Notes: generated from the sequence alone by a model not told the origin. Shown: positions 18,293-48,224, numbered from the stretch's first letter. The stretch: 64,000 nucleotides of DNA from Chthoniobacterales bacterium (GCA_014879575.1 JACSRU010000139.1:1-64000), one strand, 5' to 3'. Translations and numbers: made by a program.

Positions 18293-18374
18293 GCTCGGGT
18301 GGCGAAATTGGCAGACGCGCCAGACTTAGGATCTGGTTCCGCAAGGAGTGTGGGTTCGAGTCCCTCCCCGAGCA
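18293..18374 (+). tRNA. tRNA-Leu (anticodon TAG)
   Basis: GCTCGGG...CCCGAGC acceptor stem, anticodon arm CCAGA-CTTAGGA-TCTGG, class II variable arm, GGTTCGAGTCC T-loop. Confidence 0.93.
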
Positions 18375-31191: not shown

Positions 31192-32274
31192 CTACTCCCG
31201 AGGCAGGAATTTTCCCGTGTATTCGTGCAGCAGCTTTTCCATGGGGGCATTCTGTATCAGACCATAGAGGCAGTTGAGGGTATCGCGGGTCATTTCCTCG
31301 ATTGGACATTGGAAGGCGGAGATGCGCCCCCTCCATTCGTCGGATTCCAGCTCGTTGAGGATGATGATTTCCATGCAATCCGTGGCGCGGGATTTCTTCG
31401 CTTCCTTCAGATACCCGGCCGCCGTGAGGATGCCGTAGCTGATGAGAGCGGTGGGCCGTGTGGAGGCATCCTGTTCCTGCAATTGATGAAAGAGTTTTCG
31501 TCCGGTATCCTCCGCGGTGAGCATTCGAAAGAAGCCGGCCTGCTCTGCATCCTCTCCTTCCAGCAGGTAAGCCAGCCGCAGACCGCGTTCGATGTTGATG
31601 CCGAGGGCGTCGGTCGGGTTGCGCCCATGGGTGAGAAGAATTCTCCGATGCCCCTGGCGCAGGAGGGTGCTCGCGGCGAGTGCGGCATGGGAACCATAAT
31701 CAATCAGAAACGAAGGGGTGAGTTGGGCGGTTTCATTGCGCCCGATGGCCACCACTGGAACACGCCGGGAGAGGAGCGGGATCATGTCGGTGGGGAAGGC
31801 GGGTCCGTGAAGAATGAGGCCCGCCAATCCTGAAAACTGCGAAAGAATCGAATCATTCGTCCAGCGGATGTTCGAGTTGTGAAAAGCAATGGACATGAGG
31901 CTGTCGCCATGAGCATGCAGGTGTCGGGAAATTTCCCGCGCAACCCGCAGGCCATTGCTGGAAGTCAGGTCGGGACCGGTGGACACCACTCCAATGATTC
32001 GGTCGTTTGGAACAGCCGAGCTGCTCACAAAGCGCCCGCTTCCCTGGACGGCTTTCAGCAAGCCCATTTCCTCAAGGTGCTGGATGGCTTGACGGATAGT
32101 AGTGCGGCTGGTTTGGTATTGGACGGCCAGATCCGATTCGGTTGGAATGCGTGCGTTTGGCCGCCAAGTTCCCTGCCGGATATTGTTGAGAAAATCGTCC
32201 TGAAGCCGTTTCTTCAACCCCCGTTTCGACGCAAGCAGGGGAGCGGGCGGCAGGGTGGTTCCTTGGAGCGGCAT
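31192..32274 (-). CDS. GntR-type HTH regulator with LacI-like periplasmic-binding sensor domain (AraR-like architecture)
   Basis: wHTH RIPTESDLAVQYQTSRTTIRQAIQHLEEMGLLKAVQGSGRFV followed by IIGVVSTGPDLTSSNGLRVAREISRHL. Confidence 0.88.
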   Translation of the reverse strand: MPLQGTTLPPAPLLASKRGLKKRLQDDFLNNIRQGTWRPNARIPTESDLAVQYQTSRTTIRQAIQHLEEMGLLKAVQGSGRFVSSSAVPNDRIIGVVSTGPDLTSSNGLRVAREISRHLHAHGDSLMSIAFHNSNIRWTNDSILSQFSGLAGLILHGPAFPTDMIPLLSRRVPVVAIGRNETAQLTPSFLIDYGSHAALAASTLLRQGHRRILLTHGRNPTDALGINIERGLRLAYLLEGEDAEQAGFFRMLTAEDTGRKLFHQLQEQDASTRPTALISYGILTAAGYLKEAKKSRATDCMEIIILNELESDEWRGRISAFQCPIEEMTRDTLNCLYGLIQNAPMEKLLHEYTGKFLPRE

Positions 32275-32332
32275 AGTTCAATGAATTTGTTATCAGAGAG
32301 AGACGAATTGCACAACAAAATCAATTGACTCA

Positions 32333-32350
32333 TTAGATGTATACATCTAA
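32333..32350. promoter_or_regulatory. perfect 18-bp palindromic operator candidate
   Basis: TTAGATGTATACATCTAA between the divergent regulator and the pseudopilin gene. Confidence 0.8.
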
Positions 32351-32381
32351 ACAAATGTGGTCCCTTTCCAAAAAAAAAGTC

Positions 32382-33095
32382 ATGTGCGTGAAGCGTCTTC
32401 CCGAGAGCAGGGCCACCAAGAGCCACGGTGGCTTTACGATGCTGGAGATGTTGGTGGTTTTGGCTATCCTGACAATTTTGGGTGCCTTGCTGTTTGGCTC
32501 TTTCCGAAAAGGTTTGGAGGCATCAAAGAGGTCGGCCTGTCTGTCGAACTTGCGAAATTTTGGAGTGGCGGTGTTTTCTTATGCCAACGACCACTCTGGC
32601 GAGCTGCCGATGGATGAGGCGTTGCGGAATCCGTCAAATCCTCTGGGAGGTCGGGTGCGGTGGCGTGAATTGTTGGCCCCTTACATCGGGTTTGACTACA
32701 CGAGGGCCAGTCAGCCGGAGGCGATCCGACACAGTTTGTTCGCGTGCCCGGCGGAGACGGAATCGGTGAATTGCTACGCGATGAATGTGGACTTGAATCA
32801 TCGTCTGTATGGCGAGGCCGCGCGCGTCAAGCAGGTGGCGTTGCATAACGCGCCGACCTATGTGTTGCTGTGTGATTCCTACAAGACCGAGACGCTCTGG
32901 AATCAGACGGGAAAAATTCTCGATTGGACCCAGCCAAACCGCAGGCACGGAGGGCATCCCAACTTCCTTTATGCCGACGGTCATGCGGCTCCCTTCATGG
33001 ATGAAATTTGTGCGCCGGCCGAAGCTCCCGCAGACAGGCGGGAAAGCTACAACAAAATGTTTTATGTCAACGGAATTCATCCTTCATCCCGGTAG
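32382..33095 (+). CDS. prepilin-type pseudopilin with H-X9-DG motif
   Basis: GGFTMLEMLVVLAILTILGALLFGSF type IV pilin-like N-terminus; RRHGGHPNFLYADGHA C-terminal motif; alternative start at 32337. Confidence 0.85.
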   Translation: MCVKRLPESRATKSHGGFTMLEMLVVLAILTILGALLFGSFRKGLEASKRSACLSNLRNFGVAVFSYANDHSGELPMDEALRNPSNPLGGRVRWRELLAPYIGFDYTRASQPEAIRHSLFACPAETESVNCYAMNVDLNHRLYGEAARVKQVALHNAPTYVLLCDSYKTETLWNQTGKILDWTQPNRRHGGHPNFLYADGHAAPFMDEICAPAEAPADRRESYNKMFYVNGIHPSSR

Positions 33096-33107
33096 GGAAA
33101 TCATTCC

Positions 33108-36100
33108 TTGAAGTGGTCCAAGGGAGCCGTCCTGATGATGATGGCACTGATGGGACCTCTCCCGGGCATTTTTGCGCAGGGGGTTGAAGCGTCGGGCACG
33201 ATCAAGGCTTGGCCGGACGATCTGCGTCCCTATTGGGTTCAGCCCACCCCGTTGTCCATACCCCGGGTGGCGAATCGGCAGGCGTTTTTTGAGCAGAAGG
33301 AGGGCGCGCCTCTTGCGCTCCGTTTTTTGGAACATGCGGAAAGCAAGGTGGCGTCCAATCTTCTCTTCCCGCTGGAAGCCGGGCTTCTGAATTTGGATTC
33401 CCGTCCGCCTGAAGTCCGCCTGGCCCGGGACGAGACGCACCTTTTGCTCCGGGTTCGAGTGGCTGCGGATCGGGCGGGCGACAATCAGGCCGGGGTCTGG
33501 CCGGCCCAGCCGGGGGAAAATTTTTATACGAAGGATTGGGTGATGTTGGCGGCGGCCGCAGACTCGCCACGGAATGTTCCGCAGCGGGCTTTTTTCTTTG
33601 ATCGGAACGGCAATCATTTGTTTCGGCAGAGCGACGGCGTCAAACCCCTGAGCACGGCACCAAAGGTCCCGGACATTGAAGTTTCGACCGCACAGGATGC
33701 CGGGGGCTGGACACTTCGGGCGGCGATTCCATTATCCGCGCTCGGAAACGAGGTTCGCGTGCCGGAAACGCTCGGCCTCAACGTTGCGAGAGTGTCCGTC
33801 GAACCCGGGCATCTGCCGCTGGCTTCGTCCTGGGCGGGGAGCTTCTTTTCTTCAATCCGCTTTCCGCTCTTCTCGCTCTCCGCCCTGCAAGCGGGAGCAA
33901 ACCCGATCCTCGGGGTTTCCTATGGCCGGGCGGTCTGGCCACCCCAGAACCAGGAGGACATCAAGGAATCGGAGATCCTTTGGCCGCGAGGACGGCAGTC
34001 CGCGCAACTAACGCTGCTTCACGGAGGTGCCCCGGGGCAAAGCGTCCGGGTGCAACATGAAATGCGGGCGGGAAAGACCGCTTCGGTCCTGCTGGATCGC
34101 GAGTTTCTGCTTTCGCCCGGGGTGAATGTGTTGCGCTGGGAATGGAACTCCGGCGACGGTTCGGATGAGTGCCATGAGATCAAGGTGGACGGTGCCCTGG
34201 TGGATCGCCGCACGCTGCCTTTCCTCCCCCGCCTCGAATCCTCGTTGGCGCGATTCGTCGTCTTTCCCGGCGAATACCTCAGCCTGCACGCCGACGTGGG
34301 AATGCTCCCGAACCCACAGACCGACATGGTCTTTGAACTTTCCGTTGTTCAGGATGGACGCGAGCTTCAGCACTGGCCCGTCGGCGTGGTCACGGAGCCG
34401 GAATTCGATCTGCACTGGAGTCCGGAACGGGCCGGGTTGGCACCAGGAAACTATCAGGTTCGGCTGACGGCCAAACGCAGCGGAAGCCTTTGGGCCGTGA
34501 GTCAACACGCATGGACTTATGCCGAGCACCCGGATACTCCGGCTCTTGAACAGAAAATTCCCCTCCGGAATGCTTCCTTTGGCCACCTGCCCGCTCCGTA
34601 TCCGGTTCGGAGCGGCATCCCTTTCCCGGCGGGTCGCTTGTTTGACAGTCAGCGGCTCCGGCTTGTGGATGAGAAAAACCGGGAGGTGCAAGCCGCCTTT
34701 CACGCGGTGGGATGGTGGCCACAGGACGGGTCCATCAAATGGGTGCACGGAGACTTCCTGTTTAATCCGGCCAGAAAATACCGAATCGTCATTTCTGAAA
34801 AGTCGCGCGAACCGATAAAGTCGGAGTTGCAGGTCACAGAGACCGACGAACAATTCCTCGTATCGACCGGTTCCATGACTGTGGCGTTTGGCAGGAACGG
34901 GTTTGACGGATTTCACAACCTGCACCTCGCCAACGGGGAGGCGTCCCCCTTTACCTCCGGCACCCCGGGGAATTTTTATGCGGTGGACGAAAATCAGGTC
35001 CGCTACGAATCTTCTCCAAAGACCGGGCGCACCGAGATCGAGGAACAGAATAGCGAGCGGGTGACGCTAAAGTTCACAGGACGATGCACGAATCCGACAG
35101 ATCACGGGGAAGTGCTGCGCTACATCCTTCGCATGGTTTTCCACCGGGGCCAAAGCTGGATCGATGTGCAGCACACCTTGATTGTCACCGCAAACACCCA
35201 ACTGGTCCGCTTCCGCGAGATCGCGCTTGATTTGGGAATCTGGCGTGGCGCTGAGGAACTCCTCCTTCCCGACCAGCCGCCACTGGCCCTTAAGGGAGAT
35301 TGTTCCATCCTGCAGCTTGATCCCGAAACACGAACCTGCGTCAGCGGGGAGGAGACGCTTTCCCTGTCATCCGATGCCCCGGCCACCTTCCGTTTTACCT
35401 CATCGAGAAGCGCGCTGGAACTCAATGTGCGCGACTTTTCAGAGATGGCACCCATGGAAATCCGCTATTCCCCCGTCCGGGGACTTTCGCTTCAGGTGTG
35501 GCCGGATCTCAATGCCCATCCCGCCATGACCCCGGAGGAAACGCCGCCGGAGGATCTCATCCGGTTGCCTTTCCTCCATCGCGGACCGTTCCTTGATTTT
35601 TCCGTTCCCTTCGCCTATCTCGCCAAATCGGAATCCCGCCAGCAGGAGGCCTACATGCTCTCCGGCATTCGCATGGCCAATGGCATGGGAGTCAGCCGCA
35701 CGCATGAATTCCAGTTGGTCTTTGGCGGCAAGTCTCCGGCGAAATCCTATTTCGCGCGCGCCCATGCCTGCGCAGACCCCGCATGGATGTGTGCGACCGA
35801 GGCCGTGGGTGGCCTCCCGATGGATCCCCGACAGGAAAACGAGACCCATCCCCTCGTGGCGGAGACGGAAAAGGCCCTGGATGCCGCCTTTGACTGGGAA
35901 GCGGCGCGTCTCAAAGCCACAACAAAGGGCAAATGGACCTGGGGCGCGATGCACAGCCAGTGGGACGACACCCGCCAGCGGTGGACGCTCTATCGCCCGT
36001 TCCGGAATTCCCACCACGGCAGCACCAAGGGATACTACTACCTCTTTGCGCGGAGCGGTGATCCGAAATACCTCGCATTTGGGGAGCGGGCCTCGAATTA

Positions 36101-37652
36101 CATCAACGAAATCGGTGCCGTCCATTACGCGGACTCCGACCTCGAGGCCCTGCCCTACTTTGGCAAGGCTGTGGGGGCCATGTGCGATTACAAGGGCTTC
36201 GTTCCCTGGCACAGCGGAAGCCGCTTCGATTACAATTCCTACGCGGATAATTTTCTGAGTTCTTATTATCTGACAGGCAATCCCCGCTCGCGGGATTTCC
36301 TGGAGGAGATGCACGATTTTCTCCTGACCGTGCGCCGCCGCAGCGGAGGACTTGGCCGGATGGGTGCCAGTCGGATGGAGACCGCCGCCTCGCTGTATGA
36401 GTTCACGCTGGATGGAAGGCTTTTGGGCTATCTGCACCGCAGTTTTCAGGATGGCAGGAATCAACAGACGAAGGAGGGGTTTATACCCGGTGGGAACGAG
36501 TTTTCTTTTTGGCTGGAATATTACCTGAACCTGACCCGAAATCCCGAGGCGCTGGACGTGCTGAAAAAGACGGTCACCGCCGACGCGCAAATTCCCTGGT
36601 GGTATGATCTGGAGGGGAAGACCTGGCAGCAGAACTGGGATCAATTGGCGTATGCCTACCGCCTTTGGTCCGACCCGAAGATACTCGAACAAGGAGCGCG
36701 CCGCCTGCGGGATGCCAACCTCAACAACATCTATCTCAACCCGGGACACCCCGATCACGGCAGTATGGCAGGTTACAACGTCACCTGGAGCTTCCTCTCC
36801 CACAAAATCCCGTCTTTCCTTTGGGCCTTGAAGCGGGCTCCCGAACTTCATTGGAAGAGTCCGCGCGAAACCCTCGTCAGTCTGAACCTTCAGGCACAAT
36901 GGACCACGTTGGCGGCCTTTCGCATTGATGAGCGCGCGCCCCTGCGTCTGCGCATTCGTGGCAGTCTTCCGCTTGGAAAGCCCTTGCAGTGGCGTGTGGT
37001 GAACTCCGCAGGACTGCTTCTCAAGGAGGGAACCATCGAGAAGCTCGACTGGACGCTCCTGCCCCTGGCCAACCCGCCGGTCGCTCCCGTGACCTACACG
37101 GCAGAGGTCCCGATTTCGGAGCCGGAGGAGCCGGTGTTCCTGCAAGTCAAGGGAGTGAAGGGCCCCTTGCGGTTTCTGCCGCCTTTGAGCAATGCCGCCA
37201 AGGAAGTCTATGCGGCCACGGCGGGGGATTGCCCACTTGTCACAGGCTCTTCGCGGGACACATCCCCCGGAGCGGGAGCACATTGGTTCGGCTACTCATT
37301 TGGAAATCGCCCGGTCTCCTTTCGGGTGCCCGCAGAAGGCCGGGCGATCTCGCTTGCCCTGCTCACCCCGGTCAGCGGTCCTTACCGGTATGTATTGAAA
37401 GACCCGGAGGGTAAGCCGGTTCAGACTCTTGCAGGCGTTTCCTCCAACAATCCAACAATCAACAAATTTTCAACAACCACCCTGGACGGCGTTCGCGGAC
37501 GGGATGTCACGGTCGAGGTGGCGGCGCACTCCCCGGTTTTTCTTGAGTTCGGCGCGGATATTCCGCCCTGGGTCTCCCTTTCTCCCGAAAGTTTCTTTCT
37601 GCCCGGAAAAACAGGCGGGAACACGGATGATTCCAAGTCGGGCACCCATTGA
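33108..37652 (+). CDS. secreted 1514-aa multidomain protein: CBM9-like N-terminus plus PcRGLX/YetA-like (PL26-like) lyase region
   Basis: Signal peptide; NASFGHLPAPYPVRSGIPFPAGRLFDSQRLRLVDEKNREVQAAFHAVGWWPQDGSIKWVHGDF resembles the PcRGLX/YetA N-terminal RIFT barrel; alpha/alpha-barrel-like region around SQWDDTRQRWTLYRPFRNSHHGSTKGYYYLF. Confidence 0.65.
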   Translation: MKWSKGAVLMMMALMGPLPGIFAQGVEASGTIKAWPDDLRPYWVQPTPLSIPRVANRQAFFEQKEGAPLALRFLEHAESKVASNLLFPLEAGLLNLDSRPPEVRLARDETHLLLRVRVAADRAGDNQAGVWPAQPGENFYTKDWVMLAAAADSPRNVPQRAFFFDRNGNHLFRQSDGVKPLSTAPKVPDIEVSTAQDAGGWTLRAAIPLSALGNEVRVPETLGLNVARVSVEPGHLPLASSWAGSFFSSIRFPLFSLSALQAGANPILGVSYGRAVWPPQNQEDIKESEILWPRGRQSAQLTLLHGGAPGQSVRVQHEMRAGKTASVLLDREFLLSPGVNVLRWEWNSGDGSDECHEIKVDGALVDRRTLPFLPRLESSLARFVVFPGEYLSLHADVGMLPNPQTDMVFELSVVQDGRELQHWPVGVVTEPEFDLHWSPERAGLAPGNYQVRLTAKRSGSLWAVSQHAWTYAEHPDTPALEQKIPLRNASFGHLPAPYPVRSGIPFPAGRLFDSQRLRLVDEKNREVQAAFHAVGWWPQDGSIKWVHGDFLFNPARKYRIVISEKSREPIKSELQVTETDEQFLVSTGSMTVAFGRNGFDGFHNLHLANGEASPFTSGTPGNFYAVDENQVRYESSPKTGRTEIEEQNSERVTLKFTGRCTNPTDHGEVLRYILRMVFHRGQSWIDVQHTLIVTANTQLVRFREIALDLGIWRGAEELLLPDQPPLALKGDCSILQLDPETRTCVSGEETLSLSSDAPATFRFTSSRSALELNVRDFSEMAPMEIRYSPVRGLSLQVWPDLNAHPAMTPEETPPEDLIRLPFLHRGPFLDFSVPFAYLAKSESRQQEAYMLSGIRMANGMGVSRTHEFQLVFGGKSPAKSYFARAHACADPAWMCATEAVGGLPMDPRQENETHPLVAETEKALDAAFDWEAARLKATTKGKWTWGAMHSQWDDTRQRWTLYRPFRNSHHGSTKGYYYLFARSGDPKYLAFGERASNYINEIGAVHYADSDLEALPYFGKAVGAMCDYKGFVPWHSGSRFDYNSYADNFLSSYYLTGNPRSRDFLEEMHDFLLTVRRRSGGLGRMGASRMETAASLYEFTLDGRLLGYLHRSFQDGRNQQTKEGFIPGGNEFSFWLEYYLNLTRNPEALDVLKKTVTADAQIPWWYDLEGKTWQQNWDQLAYAYRLWSDPKILEQGARRLRDANLNNIYLNPGHPDHGSMAGYNVTWSFLSHKIPSFLWALKRAPELHWKSPRETLVSLNLQAQWTTLAAFRIDERAPLRLRIRGSLPLGKPLQWRVVNSAGLLLKEGTIEKLDWTLLPLANPPVAPVTYTAEVPISEPEEPVFLQVKGVKGPLRFLPPLSNAAKEVYAATAGDCPLVTGSSRDTSPGAGAHWFGYSFGNRPVSFRVPAEGRAISLALLTPVSGPYRYVLKDPEGKPVQTLAGVSSNNPTINKFSTTTLDGVRGRDVTVEVAAHSPVFLEFGADIPPWVSLSPESFFLPGKTGGNTDDSKSGTH

Positions 37653-37800
37653 ACCGCCCAATCCCGCCAAGTTTCCTGTCTCTCTCCACCAAGTGCAAAA
37701 TCATGGACCGTATCTGCGTTTCTCAAAAAAGAAAAATCCATGAATTTTTTTATTGACATTGGTGCCGGAAAATCGCAAGTCTCGCTCAAGCACGAATCCC

Positions 37801-38697
37801 ATGAACAACCCTTCGAACAACTATACAAATCCCGTCCCCGGTTCACTCCAACCCTCCGTGTCCCCTCACAGGACTGTCCGGCTTTTTCCAAAAATCCTGG
37901 TCACTGCGGCGCTGGGGCTTCTTCTTGCAAATGCGACGGGAAATGCCGCCACCCTGGTGAGCTGGGGTGGAGACTATCTCACCACCTCGCTGCAAAATTT
38001 CGTTCTGCCGACTGCGACCGACAACAGCGGAGTGCGCACCTATGAATACAGTGCCAGCACGGCGATTGATCCCGGCTCTGGCGTTTACTCAGGTCCAAAA
38101 TTTTATGGCGCCTTGCAGAATAATTCCGGGACAAGCACTCCGGCAGATTTTGATGCGTCTCGCGTGATTGATAACAGCGGCACCAATCAAATTCGCGTCT
38201 GGGGGAACACCCCCTCGGCGGGTATAACGAACACCATTACCGGTCTGATTTTCTTCAAGCCCACGCTGAACATTGGCGAGACCGCCTCCTTCGGCGTGTC
38301 GGATCAACTGAACATGACCATTTCGATGACGGGAGCGTCCCGCCTCGCGCGGTTTGCCGTCCTGAATAATGGACAATGGTATCTCTCGGATGACAATTTC
38401 ACCGCCAACGGGGCGAAGTCGATCACACCCAACGGGGAAATGTGGGGAGCCTGGAACCCTACGGGCGCCCCTCTGGCATCGACGCCGGGCAGCTACACCA
38501 CGAATGGATCAACCTTCACGGATATTGAGGCGGTCGGGTATTACTTTAACATTTCCAATACAGGCGCCAACTCGCGCATTGACCTGACCAGTTATACCGC
38601 CACGGGAACGGTTGTTCCCGAGCCGGGCATTGTCGGTCTCCTTGCCTGTGCCGGAATGGGGTGGATGGGGGTCCGTCGCCGGAACCGGACCGTATGA
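37801..38697 (+). CDS. PEP-CTERM sorting domain protein
   Basis: C-terminus VPEPGIVGLLACAGMGWMGVRRRNRTV. Confidence 0.9.
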   Translation: MNNPSNNYTNPVPGSLQPSVSPHRTVRLFPKILVTAALGLLLANATGNAATLVSWGGDYLTTSLQNFVLPTATDNSGVRTYEYSASTAIDPGSGVYSGPKFYGALQNNSGTSTPADFDASRVIDNSGTNQIRVWGNTPSAGITNTITGLIFFKPTLNIGETASFGVSDQLNMTISMTGASRLARFAVLNNGQWYLSDDNFTANGAKSITPNGEMWGAWNPTGAPLASTPGSYTTNGSTFTDIEAVGYYFNISNTGANSRIDLTSYTATGTVVPEPGIVGLLACAGMGWMGVRRRNRTV

Positions 38698-39344
38698 GGT
38701 ATTGGCTTTGCTGTCTGGTCCCAATCGTGGCGTTGGCAAGTGCCACCCACGCGGCAGATTTTTTCGCCAATTTCGAGGATGAGACAGCCGGCTCACCTCC
38801 AGCTCTGGGCTCGGTGGATGGCCCTGCGGAGACCGCCGCTGGATTCCGGGTGGTTGATGCCTCCACGAATCCGGTGAATCCTCTTCAGGGAAAGGCCCTG
38901 CTGGTTGAGGATCAGGCGCACGAGACCGCGCCAATTCTCAGGATTCCCGTCGGAAATTTCATCCGGGGAGAGGCCGATGCAAAAATCAAGCTGCTCGAGG
39001 GGACGTGTCGGATCGCATTGGGAAACAAAGCCGGAGCGGCGTCCATGTTGATGTTTGCCGATACCGGCCAGATCAGCGTCAAGAGCGAGACGGGGTGGAT
39101 CGCGTGTGATCAACCGTGTGATCCAACGCGACCTTTGGAGGTCAAAATCCAGTTCGACTGCGAGCGGGGAACCTATACGGCCACCCTCAACGGTCAGCCG
39201 GTCACTTTTCAAAAGGGGAACCCGGAGTTTCCATTCCGAAAATCCTCCCTCACCGCACTTTCCGAGATCATTGTGCAGGCGGGCGATGGGGAGAGCGGGG
39301 GATCCCGTGCGGTGTTTGATGATTTTGGCATCAGCGAACACTGA
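38694..39344 (+). CDS. secreted hypothetical protein, concanavalin/LamG-like beta-sandwich candidate
   Basis: Signal peptide ...ALASATHAADFFANFEDETAG, C-term RAVFDDFGISEH; ATGA overlap with PEP-CTERM gene. Confidence 0.55.
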   Translation: MRYWLCCLVPIVALASATHAADFFANFEDETAGSPPALGSVDGPAETAAGFRVVDASTNPVNPLQGKALLVEDQAHETAPILRIPVGNFIRGEADAKIKLLEGTCRIALGNKAGAASMLMFADTGQISVKSETGWIACDQPCDPTRPLEVKIQFDCERGTYTATLNGQPVTFQKGNPEFPFRKSSLTALSEIIVQAGDGESGGSRAVFDDFGISEH

Positions 39345-39347
39345 CGC

Positions 39348-40634
39348 GTGACGACCAGGCTTTCATCGGCGCCGCTGCGGGTGGCCATCATCGGAACGGG
39401 TGGCTGTGCGTTGACCCACCATATGGAGATGGGCGCACTGGAAAAGGAAGGGCGTTGTCAGGTGGTGGCGACATGTGATCCCTTTGTCAACCCGGCGGAA
39501 CTTCCGGCGGGAGTGACGCCAGGCATCCCGTTTTATTCCGACTATCGGGAGATGTTGGATGATCTGGCGGGTGACCTCGACTGTGTGACGGTGCCAACTC
39601 CCATCCCGCTGCATGCGGAGATGCATCAGAAGGCGGTCGAGTGTGGGGTGCCCTGCTATCTGGAGAAGCCGCCCACCCTCGATCCCGACGTGCTTCAAGA
39701 CATGCTCGAGGTGGAGGAAAAGGCGGATTCTGCGACCTTTGTGGGGTTTGGGTTTATTCACGAGGCCGAACGCCGGGCGGTGAAGGAACGCCTGTTGCAG
39801 GGGGAATTCGGCGCGCTCCGCCGGGTGACATTCCTCGGGCTTTGTCCCCGCAACGACCAATATTATCGCCGGACGTATTGGGCCGGGCGACTCTTGAACC
39901 GGGACGGAACCCTGCTCCTGGACTCCCCATTTGGCAACGGACTTTCCCATTTCGTTCACGCCGCCTTGTTCTGGAGCGGGGATGAGGGGCTCTGGCATTG
40001 GGGGACCCCCAAAAAGGTCCGGGCCGAACTGTTTCGCGCGCACCAGATTGAAGGGGCGGATACGTTTTTTGTGGAATGCCTCACCGGAGGGGGAATTCCG
40101 GTTCGGATCGTCACCTCCCACGCCTGTCACCCAGGGATGCCCCGCGTCGAGCAGGTGGTCTGCGAGCGGGCGACGATCGAGATTTCCCACTCGGAAAATC
40201 ACGTTCGCGTGCTGTGGCAGAACGGAACGACCGAGAGCATCGAGAGACCGGTCCGGTTTCCTTATCGCGAAAATTTTCGTTGGTATTTCGACTATCTGAC
40301 CGGGAAAAACGACCGTCCTCTGACACGTCTGGAGGACTCACTTCCCCTGGTGCATCTCCATGCCATGGCGTATGCGTCCAGCGGGGAAATCCATCCGGTT
40401 CCGGAATCTTCCCTGGAGCGGATTTCCTGGAAGAGAAGCCCGTGCCCGGCCATTCGGAATCTGGAATCCATGGCGGAACGCTTCCTGGCTGGCGGCCAGA
40501 TGCCTTCCGGGCAGGGGATGAACATCCCGCACCCCGGCATCTGGGTGGAGGCGGACGCGATGGCATCGGTGCCGGAACTCCTGCGGGCCGGGATCAGAAA
40601 TCCTGCCGATGGGGCATTGGCCTGCCCCGTATAA
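39348..40634 (+). CDS. Gfo/Idh/MocA family oxidoreductase
   Basis: VAIIGTGGCALTHHM, CDPF, CYLEKPPTL (EKP motif). Confidence 0.9.
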   Translation: MTTRLSSAPLRVAIIGTGGCALTHHMEMGALEKEGRCQVVATCDPFVNPAELPAGVTPGIPFYSDYREMLDDLAGDLDCVTVPTPIPLHAEMHQKAVECGVPCYLEKPPTLDPDVLQDMLEVEEKADSATFVGFGFIHEAERRAVKERLLQGEFGALRRVTFLGLCPRNDQYYRRTYWAGRLLNRDGTLLLDSPFGNGLSHFVHAALFWSGDEGLWHWGTPKKVRAELFRAHQIEGADTFFVECLTGGGIPVRIVTSHACHPGMPRVEQVVCERATIEISHSENHVRVLWQNGTTESIERPVRFPYRENFRWYFDYLTGKNDRPLTRLEDSLPLVHLHAMAYASSGEIHPVPESSLERISWKRSPCPAIRNLESMAERFLAGGQMPSGQGMNIPHPGIWVEADAMASVPELLRAGIRNPADGALACPV

Positions 40635-40646
40635 TCCGCCAGAAGG

Positions 40647-41642
40647 ATGAAGCTGGCACTCATCGGCGGACACGGTCATCACAGTTTGCTCCAACTGGCC
40701 GCCCCCGGTGGAAATTTGGAACTCGTGGCTCTTGCAGGCGACGGCAGGGACAACGAAGTTTTGAAATTCCAAAGTTCGCCGGCCTGGCATTCCGGGGTCG
40801 CCTGTTTTTCGCATTTCGAGCAAATGCTCGACGAGGTTCAACCCGGGATCGTCTCCATCGGGTGCCAGTATGCCTTTCACGCCGCAGCCTGCCGGGCGGC
40901 TCTGGCAAGGAACATCCCTGCGGTCTGTGAAAAGCCCGTCGCCAACACGCTGGAGGAACTGGAGGAGTTGGACGTCCTCTCCCGTTCCAGTCAGGCTCGG
41001 GTCATTCCCGAGTTCACCATGCGCTGGCAGCCGGCATTTTCCGCCGCCGCATCGGCGGTGCGGTCGGGCGGCATCGGGGACGTGGTCCTTGTCTCGGGAC
41101 AAAAATCGTATCCGTTTAAAACCCGGCCGTCCTTCTATCAAACCCGCGAGACCTATTGCGGAACGATCCCCTGGGTGGGAATTCATGCGATTGATTTTGT
41201 CAGGTGGTGTTCCGGACGGGAATACGAGACGGTGACGGCCATCCACGGCAATCATTCCCAGCCAGACTATCCGGGGTGCGAGGATCACGCCGTGCTGCTT
41301 TGTGAAATGAGCGGCGGTGCCTGCGCGGTGATCACCGCCGATTTCCTCCGCCCCACGACGGCTCCCTCCAGAAATGATGACCGGCTTCGCATCATGGGAA
41401 CCCGCGGATCTCTGGAAGTGCGCGACGGAGTTTGTCGTCTGTGTGAGGAAGGCTCTCCGGAACGGCTGCTGACCATGCCGGAACAGGACGCCGCCCAGGG
41501 GCTTTTGGACTGCGCTCTCGGGCAGAGTGCCTTTCTGACCTGGCACGACGCCCATGTGGCCACCCGGCTCGCGCTTCTCGCCAGGGATTCCGCAGACCGC
41601 CGCGAGAAGCAGACCTTTCCTTCGGCTCCCACCATTCTTTGA
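40647..41642 (+). CDS. Gfo/Idh/MocA family oxidoreductase
   Basis: LALIGGHGHHSLL, VCEKPVANTLEELEEL. Confidence 0.88.
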   Translation: MKLALIGGHGHHSLLQLAAPGGNLELVALAGDGRDNEVLKFQSSPAWHSGVACFSHFEQMLDEVQPGIVSIGCQYAFHAAACRAALARNIPAVCEKPVANTLEELEELDVLSRSSQARVIPEFTMRWQPAFSAAASAVRSGGIGDVVLVSGQKSYPFKTRPSFYQTRETYCGTIPWVGIHAIDFVRWCSGREYETVTAIHGNHSQPDYPGCEDHAVLLCEMSGGACAVITADFLRPTTAPSRNDDRLRIMGTRGSLEVRDGVCRLCEEGSPERLLTMPEQDAAQGLLDCALGQSAFLTWHDAHVATRLALLARDSADRREKQTFPSAPTIL

Positions 41643-41643
41643 T

Positions 41644-43740
41644 ATGAAATCTCATCGCGCCTTTCGCTATATCCTTCGGTATTCGATTGATCCCGGGTTT
41701 GAAGTCGAAGCCCGGATGGAGGAACTCGTGACCTTTTGTCGGGACGCCAAGGTGGAGGAAGTGATGCTGCTGATCTGCGCCGAAGAGCTGTCACCGGGGC
41801 ATCCCACACCGGAGGAAGTGGAGCCTTGGATCGACATGGCCCGCACGCTGCGCCAGCGTCTGGCCGCAGAATCCCTGGCGATGAGCCTGAATCCCTGGAG
41901 CACCATCTTTCACAATCAACGGGGACGACACCTCCGCCCGGGACAAAATTTCCGCCGGATGGTCGGAGAGAACGGCGTGCAGAGCACGGTCACGGTCTGT
42001 CCCCTCTGCGAACATTGGCAGACGTATCTGGGCGACCTCTTTGCCAGGTATGCCTCGGAGATTTCTCCATCAGCCCTCTGGATCGAGGACGACTGGCGGC
42101 TGCACAATCATGACAAGGCACTCGGATGGGGAGGATGCTTCTGCGACGTCCACATGAGGGAGTTTTCCCGTCGCGTGGGCGAATCCGTGGATCGGACTCA
42201 ACTGCTCAAGGCCTTGCTAAGCCCCGGTCGCCCACACCCCTGGCGGTCTGTCTGGATGGATCTGAGCGCTGAGACATTGCTCGCTCCGCTTCAAAAAGTG
42301 GCGGGGAAAATTCGCCACGCGCAACCCGGCGTGCGCCTCGGCTTGATGAGTTCCGCGCCCGACATGCACAGCATCGAGGGGCGACCGTGGGCACTTATGC
42401 AGGAAACGCTTGGGTTTCAACCCGCCTTCCTCACCCGCCCCCATCTTCCGCCCTACACCCAGACCCATGCGCTGGCGATCACTCCGGCCGTCACCCGGCA
42501 GACTCTTGTCAATCTGGAGGGACCGCTGGAAATCTACCCGGAATTGGAGAACTCCCCACGATGCGGGTTGTATTCCAAAAGCACCCGGTATTCCCGATGG
42601 GAGATGCTCCACTGTGCGGCGTTCGGCAGCCACGGCATCACGATCAATCACTTCGACATGATGGGCAACGGCATCGCCCTGGACCCGACTTTCGGCCGCA
42701 TGCTGGCGGATGCGAAACCAATGCTGGACGCCCTTGCCAGCCTGGAAATTGAAGACCGCGAGGCTGAGGGTGTTCAAATCCTCATTGCGCCGGATGTGGC
42801 GCGTTACATCGAACTGGATGCCGCAGAACGTTCGATGATGTCCTTGTTCCGTTCCTCCATCACCTGGAGCGATGTTTTCTACATCCTCGGAATGGCGCAT
42901 GGGTTCCAAAAGGATCTCTCCACGGTCCGTCCCGGTCAGGTCACCGCCCTTTGCGGATTCACGGCGGACGCGTTTTCCGACATAGACATCCACCGACTGC
43001 TTGGCGGATCGGTCCTTCTGGATGCGACCAGCGCCTCCATTCTCCTGCGACGCGGTTTTGGCGCGTGGATCGGGGTGCAGTCCGGGGAGTGGAAGTCCCT
43101 GGAGGAAACCGGCTACTCCTACGAGGAAATCGATGAGGAGGAAACCTTCCCTTACGGAGTCGCGCGTCCGCGCCTTTGCGCTCAACGCTGCGCTGCCCGC
43201 CTGTTGTCGATGGTTCCCGCAGGGGATACCCGGGTGCTCAGCAGAATTTTCACAGCGAACCACGCGCCGCTTTGGCCCGGAGCGCTCCTCACGGAAAATG
43301 CCCTCGGCGGACGCGTGGTCACCCTCACTTACCCGGTCGAACCCAATGCCCAGTTTTTCATGGCATTCTTCAACAGATTCCGGCGCGAATTCCTGCACCG
43401 GATCGTTTTCGAATTGTCGGCCAAGGCCACGCTGGCGGCGATTGACACCCACCCGATGCACGCCTACCGATACTCCACGTCGAAAGGGATCTTGTTGGCC
43501 GCCCTCAATCCCCTGGATGATCCCGCACCCGGCGTCACATGGAAACTTCCCACGGGCACGAGTGCCTCACGAAAATGGAAGCATCTGACCCGCGCCGGCA
43601 ACTGGCAGACGATCGAGCCGACACTCCAAAGCGGCCCGTGGTGCGAAAGACTCCATTTTGAAACCGGGATATCCGCCCTGGACGGAGCCTTCTTTCTCGG
43701 ACACCCCATCTCCCGCGAGGATGGCGATGGGACCTCGTGA
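41644..43740 (+). CDS. large hypothetical protein, candidate TIM-barrel glycoside hydrolase
   Basis: SALWIEDDWRLHNHD...GGCFCDVHMREFS (beta-strand-ED and Cys-rich GH42-like pattern); no signal peptide; operonic with Gfo/Idh genes. Confidence 0.55.
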   Translation: MKSHRAFRYILRYSIDPGFEVEARMEELVTFCRDAKVEEVMLLICAEELSPGHPTPEEVEPWIDMARTLRQRLAAESLAMSLNPWSTIFHNQRGRHLRPGQNFRRMVGENGVQSTVTVCPLCEHWQTYLGDLFARYASEISPSALWIEDDWRLHNHDKALGWGGCFCDVHMREFSRRVGESVDRTQLLKALLSPGRPHPWRSVWMDLSAETLLAPLQKVAGKIRHAQPGVRLGLMSSAPDMHSIEGRPWALMQETLGFQPAFLTRPHLPPYTQTHALAITPAVTRQTLVNLEGPLEIYPELENSPRCGLYSKSTRYSRWEMLHCAAFGSHGITINHFDMMGNGIALDPTFGRMLADAKPMLDALASLEIEDREAEGVQILIAPDVARYIELDAAERSMMSLFRSSITWSDVFYILGMAHGFQKDLSTVRPGQVTALCGFTADAFSDIDIHRLLGGSVLLDATSASILLRRGFGAWIGVQSGEWKSLEETGYSYEEIDEEETFPYGVARPRLCAQRCAARLLSMVPAGDTRVLSRIFTANHAPLWPGALLTENALGGRVVTLTYPVEPNAQFFMAFFNRFRREFLHRIVFELSAKATLAAIDTHPMHAYRYSTSKGILLAALNPLDDPAPGVTWKLPTGTSASRKWKHLTRAGNWQTIEPTLQSGPWCERLHFETGISALDGAFFLGHPISREDGDGTS

Positions 43741-43833: not shown

Positions 43834-43984
43834 CCGCCGCGCACCGGTAGTGTCGCAAAAGTCCGGCCTGGTCGACGAGGGGAAATCCTCCCCGTGATCT
43901 CCGGGGCAGGGCATCGGAAAATTTTCCCGCCCTTCGATGCGATTTCTCTTCATCCTTTTTCCGCAATCCTCCATCCTTCGACGC

Positions 43985-45043
43985 ATGCGCACACCACTTT
44001 ACGACTCCCACGTTGCCGCCGGCGGGCGGATGGTTGGCTTCGCCGGCTGGGACATGCCGGTCCAGTATTCCGGAATTCTTGCCGAGCACAAAGCCGTCCG
44101 CGAGGGGGTTGGTGTTTTCGACATCTCGCACATGGGCGAATTTTTTGTGGGCGGACCCGGCAGCGTGGCCTGGCTGGATTCCCTGCTCACCAACAACGTC
44201 GCTTCACTCCCGGACGGCACGGCCCAATACTCGCTCCTGCTCAACGAGCGGGGAGGAATCATTGATGATCTGATTGTCTATCGGCTCGGCGCGGAGAATT
44301 TTCTGCTCGTGGTGAATGCCTCGATGATTGACGAGGATGCGGCCTGGATGACGAATCGGCTTGTGGAGGGCGTGACGTTTGAAAACCGGAGCGCGGAGTT
44401 CGCGGCTCTCGCGATCCAAGGGCCCCTGGCGGGGGGCATTTTTGAGAAATTGTTCGGACGGGGGATGCCTGCCGCCCGCAATCGGATTCTTCAGATCGGC
44501 GGGGATTTTGTGGTGACGACCGGCTACACCGGCGAGGTCGGATTTGAATGGATCCTGCCAGCCACCGAAGCGACCGCCGCCTGGCAGCGAACCCTGGAGG
44601 CCGGGGCAACCCCCTGCGGTCTCGGTGCCCGCGACACGCTCCGCCTCGAAATGTGCTATCCGCTCAATGGCTCCGACCTCTCGCCGGATCGGACCCCGCT
44701 GCAGGCCGGGCTCGGATATTTTGTGGATCTGGAAAAGGCGGATTTCGTCGGCAGGGCCGCCCTGGTCGCGCAAAAACTCGCCGGACTGCCCGACCGCCTC
44801 TGCGCCCTTCGGGTCACGGACAAGGCGCCTCCAATCCGCCCGCATTACCCGGTGTGGGTGGACGGAAAGCCTGTCAGCGAGACGACAAGCGGAGCCCTTT
44901 CCCCATCGCTGGGTGAGGGGATCGCCCTGGCTTATCTGCCTGGGGAATTCTCGAAACCCGGACAGGAAGTGGAAATTGAAGTGCGCGGGAAACGATTCCG
45001 CGCTTGTGTTCGCAAAAAACCCCTTTACCAAAAAGCCTCATGA
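43985..45043 (+). CDS. gcvT: glycine cleavage system T protein (aminomethyltransferase)
   Basis: RTPLYDSHVAAGGRMVGFAGWDMPVQY, TGYTGEVGFE. Confidence 0.96.
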   Translation: MRTPLYDSHVAAGGRMVGFAGWDMPVQYSGILAEHKAVREGVGVFDISHMGEFFVGGPGSVAWLDSLLTNNVASLPDGTAQYSLLLNERGGIIDDLIVYRLGAENFLLVVNASMIDEDAAWMTNRLVEGVTFENRSAEFAALAIQGPLAGGIFEKLFGRGMPAARNRILQIGGDFVVTTGYTGEVGFEWILPATEATAAWQRTLEAGATPCGLGARDTLRLEMCYPLNGSDLSPDRTPLQAGLGYFVDLEKADFVGRAALVAQKLAGLPDRLCALRVTDKAPPIRPHYPVWVDGKPVSETTSGALSPSLGEGIALAYLPGEFSKPGQEVEIEVRGKRFRACVRKKPLYQKAS

Positions 45044-45420
45044 ATGTTCCCAATAACCTCCGCTACGCAGAAAGCCACGAATGGATCCTCGTCGAGGGTG
45101 ACACCGGCACAGTCGGCATCACCGACCACGCTCAGGCCGAACTCACCGACATTGTCTTTGCCGAACCGCCTCCGGTGGGGAAGACGCTTGCCGCCGGGGA
45201 GGTGGCGGCCGTCGTGGAGTCCGTCAAGGCCGCCAGCGATATTTACACTCCGGTTTCCGGGGAGGTGATTGAACGCAATGACGCCCTGGACGCCAATCCG
45301 TCCCTCTTGAACACCGATCCCTTCGGCCAGGGCTGGATATTCAAGATCCGTCTGTCGAATCCGGCAGAAGCCGCCGCGCTCAAGGATCCCGCCGCCTATG
45401 GCGCACAGATCGGGGCATGA
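45040..45420 (+). CDS. gcvH: glycine cleavage system H protein
   Basis: [25 protein letters not shown] lipoyl motif. Confidence 0.97.
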
Positions 45421-48224
45421 GCACGTTCTCCGCACGACATATCGGTCCCTCGGAAAGGGAAATTGTCACCATGCTCGGTGTTGTGGGGGCAAATTCAATG
45501 GATGCCCTCCTCGCGCAGACCGTTCCGGAAAACATCCGTCTCCAGGGCGATCTGACCCTGCCTGCGGCGCGTTCGGAAGAGCAGGCGCTTGCCGCGTTGC
45601 GGGATCTGATGGATCGCAATGTTGTCGCCCAATCCTTTATTGGGGCCGGTTACCACGGCACCCATACACCGGCCGTGATCCGCAGGAATATTTTGGAAAA
45701 TCCCGCCTGGTATACGGCCTACACCCCGTATCAGGCGGAAATTGCGCAGGGGCGCCTCGAAGCGCTCCTCAATTTCCAAACGATGGTGTGCGATCTGACC
45801 GGCATGGAGATTTCCAATGCCTCGCTGCTCGACGAGGCGACGGCCGCCGCCGAGGCGATGGCGTTATGCCATGACATCAAGGGCGGGGAGGCATTTTTTG
45901 TGGCGGACCATTGCCATCCCCAGGCGATCGCCCTGCTCCGCACCCGGGCCGAGCCGCTGGGCATTCGGATTCTTACCGGACCGGCTGAGAGTGCGCCCTT
46001 GGAGGGGGTGTTTGGCGCGCTTTTCCAATATCCGGCCACCGATGGGACGATTTGTGATCTGGGTGCCATGATTGGGCGGGCCCATGCGGTCGGCGCCCTT
46101 GCTGTCGTTGCCGCCGATCTGCTGGCACTCACACTCATTACCCCTCCCGGGGAATTGGGGGCGGATATCGTGATCGGCTCGGCGCAACGCTTCGGGGTTC
46201 CTCCGGGATACGGCGGCCCTCATGCCGCCTTTCTGGCCACCCGGGATGCGCATAAACGCCGGATGCCGGGACGGCTGGTGGGCGTGTCAAAGGACTCCGC
46301 AGGCCATCCCGCCTTGCGGCTGACGCTCCAGACCCGCGAGCAACATATCCGACGCGAAAAGGCCACGAGCAACATCTGCACCGCGCAGGTTCTCCTCGCC
46401 GTGATGGCTTCGATGTATGCCGTCTATCATGGCCCCGGGGGGTTGCGCACGATTGCGGAGCGGATTCATTCCCTGGCCCGTCGGCTTGCCGGATCGTTGC
46501 AGCAACTGGGCTACGCCGTGCATCCGGGGCCATTTTTTGATACGATCCGCATCTGGCTGGGAACCCGCCGCGCGGACGACCTCCTCGTGCAGGCCGCCGC
46601 TGCGGGCATCAATCTTCGCAAGCTGGATGAGCATGCCGTGGCGATTGCCCTCGATGAAACCACGGAGGATCTGCGTCCGCTCCTCAAAGTTTTTGGAAAG
46701 ACCTCCGGAGACGAAGCCGGTGCCTGTCCGGAGGTGATCGGCGCGGCGTTGCGGCGCAAGACGGACTTTCTTACCCATCCGGTTTTTCAGTCGTATCATA
46801 CCGAGACGGAAATGCTCCGCTACATTCGGCGTCTTGAGGCTCGGGACCTCTCGCTGACGACCTCGATGATCCCGCTGGGCTCCTGCACGATGAAGCTCAA
46901 TGCCACGTCGGAGATGCTGCCCGTGACCTGGGAATCGGTCGCCTCACTCCATCCGCTGGTGCCGCTGGCGCAGGCGGCGGGTTACGCCGAAATGACCGCC
47001 CAACTGGGGGCCTGGTTGGCGGAGATCACGGGATTTGCCGCCGTGTCCCTGCAACCGAACGCCGGCTCGCAGGGGGAATACGCGGGACTGCTCGCCATCC
47101 GGGGCTGGCACCATTCGCGCGGCGAAGCCCACCGCAACATCTGTCTCATCCCGACATCGGCCCACGGCACCAATCCCGCGAGCGCGGTCATGGCCGGCAT
47201 GAAGGTCGTCGCCGTTGCCTGCGATGCGCACGGAAATGTTGATCTGAAGGATTTGAGGGCGAAAGCCGAACTCCACCGGGATTCCCTCGCCGCCGTGATG
47301 GTGACCTATCCGTCCACCCACGGGGTTTTTGAGGAAGGCATCCGCGAGATTTGCGAGGTGATTCATGCCGCCGGGGGGCAGGTCTATATGGACGGAGCCA
47401 ACATGAACGCGCAGGTCGGGCTGTGCCGCCCGGGCGATATTGGCGCCGATGTTTGCCACCTGAACCTTCACAAGACCTTCTGCATTCCCCATGGCGGCGG
47501 TGGACCGGGCGTCGGCCCGATTGGTGTCGCCGCGCATCTGGCGCCCTTTTTGCCGGGGCATCCGCTGGCGACGGACAACGTGGTCGGACCCGTCTCCCAG
47601 GCGCCGCTCGGCAGTGCCGGCATCCTTGTCATTTCCTGGATGTATATCGCGATGATGGGTGCCCGGGGGCTCCGAGAGGCCACCGCCGTGGCGATCCTGA
47701 ACGCAAATTACATCGCGGCCCGGCTTGAGAATTATTTTCCCATTCTCTTCAAGGGTTCGCAGGGCCGGGTGGCGCATGAATGCATCCTCGATCTGCGCGA
47801 ATGGAAACACCGCGCCGGCATCGAAGTCGAAGATGTGGCCAAACGGCTGATGGATTTCGGATTCCATGCGCCGACGATGAGCTGGCCGGTTGTGGGCACC
47901 CTGATGGTCGAGCCCACGGAAAGCGAATCCCAGGCGGAGTTGGACAGATTCTGCGAGGCGATGATCACGATCCATGGCGAGATGGCTGCGATCGAACGCG
48001 GCGCACTCGACCGGACGGACAATCCCTTAAAAAATGCACCGCACACCGCCGCGGTTGTGACCGCCGACAAGTGGGAGCACGCGTATCCGCGCTCGGTGGC
48101 CGCCTGGCCGGCCCCCTGGTTGCGCGAACACAAATTCTGGCCCGCAGTGGGACGCATTGACAATGTTTACGGTGACCGCCATGTCTTCTGTTCCTGCCCG
48201 CCTGTCGGTTCGGCGGAGGGGTGA
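45417..48224 (+). CDS. gcvP: glycine dehydrogenase (P protein)
   Basis: [33 protein letters not shown]. Confidence 0.97.

Follow-up and report, generated by a model that had tools for sequence, protein, structure and literature searches.

The stretch analysed here, 64,000 nucleotides of a Chthoniobacterales bacterium (GCA_014879575.1 JACSRU010000139.1:1-64000; the whole stretch is called the window below), contains at positions 31192-43740 a locus of eight genes, P1 to P8 in order. A first-pass annotation had described it as a carbohydrate-utilisation locus, a description that held up. All eight genes were found where it placed them, the regulator P1 diverging on the minus strand and P2 to P8 co-oriented on the plus strand, with support from Pfam and NCBIfam. 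The genes and sites are as follows.

31192-32274, minus strand: P1, divergent regulator with a GntR winged helix and a LacI-type sugar-sensor domain (Pfam GntR, 8e-16; Peripla_BP_3, 2.5e-4, weak)
32333-32350, no strand: probable operator between P1 and P2, the perfect 18-bp palindrome TTAGATGTATACATCTAA
32382-33095, plus strand: P2, H-X9-DG pseudopilin (reading frame open from 32337; N_methyl and SBP_bac_10 (DUF1559))
33108-37652, plus strand: P3, secreted 1514-aa PcRGLX-related enzyme (PcRGLX_1st and PcRGLX_2nd)
36012-36236, plus strand: active-site-like signatures of P3, HHG and DYKG..R.DYN (alignment A3; HH, DYKG and R.DYN invariant in the P3 clade, unlike PL26)
37801-38697, plus strand: P4, PEP-CTERM secreted protein (TIGR02595, 19.2 bits against a cut-off of 16)
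38694-39344, plus strand: P5, small protein with a signal-like N-terminus (no family match)
39348-40634, plus strand: P6, Gfo/Idh oxidoreductase (GFO_IDH_MocA, 4.5e-15; EKP motif)
40647-41642, plus strand: P7, Gfo/Idh oxidoreductase of a GxxGH / GGTIPWVG.HA.DW-type subfamily (GFO_IDH_MocA)
41644-43740, plus strand: P8, GH42/GH164-like three-domain protein of an unnamed family (structure model; no sequence match in Pfam, NCBIfam or PDB)
42085-42087, plus strand: candidate catalytic Glu148 of P8
42541-42549, plus strand: candidate catalytic Glu300/302 of P8

P4 and P5 overlap in an ATGA, and gaps of 3, 12 and 1 bp separate P5 from P6, P6 from P7 and P7 from P8, respectively. The widest gap inside the operon, about 148 bp, lies 5' of P4. 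Domain searches confirmed the two Gfo/Idh oxidoreductases, both of which match GFO_IDH_MocA, the PEP-CTERM protein, with P4 above the TIGR02595 cut-off, and the pseudopilin, in which the N_methyl and DUF1559 matches are accompanied by a literal H-x9-DG motif, HGGHPNFLYADG, at residue 189. For P5, proposed to be a small secreted lectin-like protein, the signal-like N-terminus was recovered, but no family was found in Pfam and NCBIfam. The description of the module as surface-anchored, for which the PEP-CTERM of P4 and the pseudopilin are the sole basis, was unsupported or overstated.

In P3, Pfam matches to PcRGLX_2nd (3.3e-8) and PcRGLX_1st (2.6e-5) reveal the N-terminal and central domains that characterize PL26; PF21345 (33.4 bits) and PF19501 (24.4 bits) were both above cut-off, and PF21346 gave no match in this protein. 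A profile of the P3 family (A3) retrieved PcRGLX, the PL26 exo-lyase (PDB 5xq3), at 1.9e-26, in an alignment that spans the N-terminal half and runs into the first part of the toroid. The two proteins are thus alike in the N-terminal RIFT barrel, the central beta-sandwich and the beginning of the toroid. PcRGLX, however, has the toroid motifs WxNSE and GTRHGVQxWSD, which it has in common with a paralogue in the window's own genome and which P3 lacks. P3 and its clade have HHG and DYKGxxxW..R.DYN instead, HH(G/x) and DYKGxxxW being kept in that place across 12 P3 relatives. Since the active-site signatures differ, P3 cannot be equated with a PL26 rhamnogalacturonan lyase, as the first-pass annotation suggested, and its membership of PL26 was rejected in spite of the shared N-terminal and central domains. 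Judged by its sequence, P3 is an enzyme on a PcRGLX scaffold with a putative active site other than that of PL26; lyase chemistry appears more likely than hydrolysis, which is possible. Of its annotation as CBM9-like plus PcRGLX-like, the second part stood, whereas a CBM9-like N-terminus is only hinted at (E value 0.2; 0.0033 for a homologue). Relatives of P3 occur in 8 of the 389 other genomes of the phylum (E <= 1e-20, identity about 30% or less), and DNA pattern scans of genome contigs and viral contigs returned none.

The second PcRGLX-type gene of the genome, at G000:C32:72875-76417 (L075:14631-18173), 9 kb past the end of the window, matches PF21346 and PcRGLX directly and carries PL26-like motifs. 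It is likely to be the true PL26-type locus of this genome. It lies between genes for an abhydrolase and a LacI-type regulator. Elsewhere, three divergent PcRGLX-family genes lie within 13 kb on one Lentisphaeria contig (L151:4693-17317), and two PcRGLX-family genes are interspersed with three pseudopilin genes at L150:7707-17381.

Both P6 and P7 have the Rossmann domain and the EKP motif of Gfo/Idh/MocA proteins. The best PDB match of P6 is the glucuronide-3-dehydrogenase 8tdi (1.1e-10), and that of P7 is 3ip3, by name a putative oxidoreductase (6.5e-46, full length). P7 relatives were found in 55 of 390 genomes of the phylum at E <= 1e-35. Two neighbouring Gfo/Idh genes, with a glucuronide-3-dehydrogenase as the nearest solved structure of P6, recall oxidoreductive glycoside cleavage by this family. 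P6 and P7 are nevertheless far under the BT_2158/BT_2159 cut-offs (P6 reached 39.2 bits against 750 for the BT_2158-type glycoside 3-dehydrogenase equivalog), and the operon has no DUF1080 match in the Pfam scan.

Synteny elsewhere, on which the first-pass annotation had staked its proposal, was found for part of the locus. The complete eight-gene order was detected in no other genome, but three distant genomes of the Verrucomicrobiota share with it a core of a P3-type gene, P7 and a P6-type Gfo. In each of them the core runs P3-type, P7-type, P6-type. G378 (Lentisphaeria) has a pilin and then a GH20-like gene ahead of it and an MFS gene inserted between P7-type and P6-type; in G271 a GDSL esterase-like gene stands before the core, and in G125 a KDPG aldolase followed by a small CBM_4_9 protein. 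Among 44 P7 loci that were read, a P6-type Gfo stands beside P7 in 14 (in one case across an MFS gene) and a P3-type gene in three, where chance would give about 0.04 cases of P3-P7 adjacency by our rough estimate, assuming two P3-type genes among 4000 per genome. P7 also occurs with a PL11 rhamnogalacturonan lyase, an MFS gene and a GH78 alpha-L-rhamnosidase (G378:C45 and G297:C628); in G414 its neighbourhood includes a KDPG aldolase and a short-chain dehydrogenase. Within the window's own family, three genomes of one genus carry P6 relatives (37-43%) in an operon that has a LacI regulator diverging from it and further genes for two secreted proteins, a PL22-like oligogalacturonate lyase, a pilin and an MFS protein. 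Because of these lyase neighbours of P7 and P6 and the glucuronide-3-dehydrogenase match of P6, neighbours and structure matches of the two oxidoreductases point to uronic-acid polysaccharides, with rhamnogalacturonan as the best single guess. That P6 is orthologous to its counterparts in the distant pairs was considered and rejected, as the tree groups the window's P6 with members of its own family and places the distant partners in a sister clade.

P8 is 698 aa long from the ATG at 41644 (728 aa by the longest open reading frame). Its sequence matched nothing in Pfam, NCBIfam and PDB, and Pfam GH families matched none of 14 relatives. A model built on a MAFFT alignment of 35 sequences had a pLDDT (predicted local distance difference test) of 92, and Foldseek aligned it over the whole length with GH42 beta-galactosidases (8.8e-21) and the GH164 beta-mannosidase (7.6e-19), at a TM of about 0.6. 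The model has the same three domains, a barrel, a trimerisation-like and a beta domain, with conserved Glu residues at the catalytic places of clan GH-A, Glu148 at the end of strand 4 and Glu300/Glu302 on strand 7; the GH164 enzyme Bs164 has Glu160 and Glu297, with Asn159 (PMC7105311). P8 is, however, 10-14% identical to these enzymes, has no GH42 profile match and lacks the Asn before the acid/base. From the model we confidently predict that P8 is a GH42/GH164-type three-domain enzyme. The earlier proposal of a candidate glycosidase agrees with this predicted fold, the protein being glycosidase-like and of an unnamed family, which is novel as far as sequence searches of Pfam, NCBIfam and PDB go. 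Relatives are present in 94 of 390 phylum genomes and in metagenome-assembled genomes of Planctomycetes, Phycisphaerae and Epulonipiscium; their many neighbours include PL8, sulfatase, GH106, DUF2264 and SSF genes. A role as strict substitute for GH88 was discarded: of 14 genomes in which P8 has close relatives, 5 have a GH88 match above cut-off, so that the two are not mutually exclusive.

The family shows further associations. Another, distantly related member of the P8 family (28% identity; G000:C51:40321-42210; L006, L055) is encoded in the window's own genome. In four loci, a family of about 390 aa adjoins a P8-family gene (L091:8834-9982, L092:8821-9981, L095:6865-8052 and L097:8652-9866); two of its members were scanned and had no Pfam match. 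At L188:5687-9731, the gene of an EamA transporter stands between those of a distant P8-family member (23%) and a P7-type oxidoreductase.

Upstream of the operon, the helix-turn-helix of P1 is nearest to HutC-type models. The palindrome TTAGATGTATACATCTAA is the longest perfect one of the 64 kb and the sole occurrence in the window when up to 3 mismatches are allowed (0 in 100 shuffles). The site at 32333-32350 is the natural candidate for an operator, probably bound by P1. As to the pseudopilin, a pilin gene adjoins P3 relatives in three genomes (G458, G444 and G274) and is one gene off in G378. The genome of Verruconatronum alginivorum encodes 67 pseudopilin homologues, one gene lying inside an alginate cluster and another being over-expressed with the alginate clusters (PMC13274419). 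P2 fits this pattern of pseudopilins in polysaccharide clusters.

The Pfam scan of the eight genes detected no transporter, and the locus thus lacks the transporter expected of a polysaccharide utilisation locus, in agreement with the first-pass annotation. Elsewhere in the window's genome there are six homologues of the MFS gene that belongs to the G378 core. Three are 42-43% identical to it, and one adjoins an FGGY kinase and two further Gfo/Idh genes. On account of these homologues it is plausible that the absence of an importer is local and that uptake is encoded elsewhere, as had been supposed. The alginate clusters of V. alginivorum are comparable in that secreted lyases occur together with pseudopilin genes, but they include an SSF carrier and the V. 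alginivorum genome has GH88 (PMC13274419), whereas here the locus has no transporter and the genome no GH88 match.

Taken together, we read the operon as an inducible one for using a polysaccharide that contains uronate and most likely resembles rhamnogalacturonan, with a probability of roughly 0.55. P1 would sense a sugar ligand and leave the palindromic operator. Secreted P3, with its PcRGLX-type sandwich-plus-toroid scaffold, would then cleave the polymer, probably by beta-elimination with catalytic residues unlike those of PL26, as fold and conserved motifs suggest, and P2, P4 and P5 may act as envelope or secretion-linked helpers. Import of the oligosaccharides would fall to a carrier whose gene lies elsewhere, for which the six MFS homologues are plausible candidates. 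In the cytoplasm, P6 and P7 would oxidise sugar positions, to judge from their family, and P8 would take off a sugar residue, in keeping with its high-confidence predicted fold.

Several observations weigh against this reading. GH88/105 and KduI have no match in the genome, which is 97.7% complete and in which the controls worked, so that the canonical unsaturated-uronide route must be absent or replaced; in another verrucomicrobium, DehR-type reductases are listed as acting at this step (PMC13274419). The nearest relatives of P3 are only about 30% identical, and the P6-type partners in the distant pairs belong to a subfamily other than that of the window's P6. Residue 147 of P8 is hydrophobic in 14 of 14 aligned relatives and not the GH-A Asn that precedes the acid/base. 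P8 relatives also neighbour unrelated genes, and P8 therefore need not be substrate-specific. Finally, the toroid of P3 relatives resembles GH127/GH88 hydrolases as well, so P3 could be a hydrolase.

This last point leads to an alternative that we consider possible but unlikely: P3 would belong to the PcRGLX/GH127-like toroid superfamily as a hydrolase and act on a neutral or deoxysugar-rich glycan, P8 would be an exo-glycosidase, and P6 and P7 would metabolise the freed sugars. The missing GH88/105 and KduI and the absence of PL26-type motifs from P3 are in line with it, as are the weak matches of the P3-family profile to GH127 and GH105 structures and of two P3 relatives to PF07944/PF07470. 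The occurrence of P7 and P6 elsewhere with PL11, GH78 and a PL22-like lyase, and the position of the P3-P7-P6 core behind a KDPG aldolase in G125, argue against it. That there is no single pathway, P8 and P6/P7 serving general sugar scavenging as mere neighbours of P3, is quite improbable: the mixed neighbours of P8 relatives, an eight-gene order detected nowhere else and the gap ahead of P4 would agree with it, but the P3-P7-P6 adjacency in three distant genomes, the 1-12 bp gaps and ATGA overlap across P4 to P8 and the single divergent regulator with its palindromic site do not.

Recent horizontal transfer was also considered and rejected, since the G+C content of the locus (55-61%) equals that of the window (59%) and composition gives no sign of it. 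Scans for promoter and terminator consensus sequences gave matches not above chance. 3' of the operon, glycine cleavage genes (gcvT, gcvH and gcvP, named from their translations) occupy 43937-48224 of the window, gcvT beginning 196 bp downstream of P8. In another part of the window, ARAGORN called a tRNA-Leu at 18293-18374, the anticodon not being resolved in the output.

Within the preferred reading of uronate-polysaccharide use, a further proposal is that P3, with a new active site on its PcRGLX scaffold, would join the oxidoreductases P6 and P7 and P8, as member of a new clan-GH-A-like family, in a uronide route without GH88/105 and KduI that replaces the canonical pathway for unsaturated uronides in Verrucomicrobiota; we hold this to be doubtful. 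More generally, the loci with which Planctomycetes-Verrucomicrobia-Chlamydiae (PVC) bacteria degrade many acidic polysaccharides escape the standard rules for polysaccharide utilisation loci. The locus offers a recurrent core that can be searched for, consisting of a PcRGLX-like gene, a GxxGH-type Gfo/Idh and a second Gfo/Idh, often with MFS and pseudopilin genes. It also brings out a glycosidase-like family of about 700 residues which, although it has no sequence match in Pfam, NCBIfam or PDB, is present in about one quarter of the sampled genomes of the phylum.

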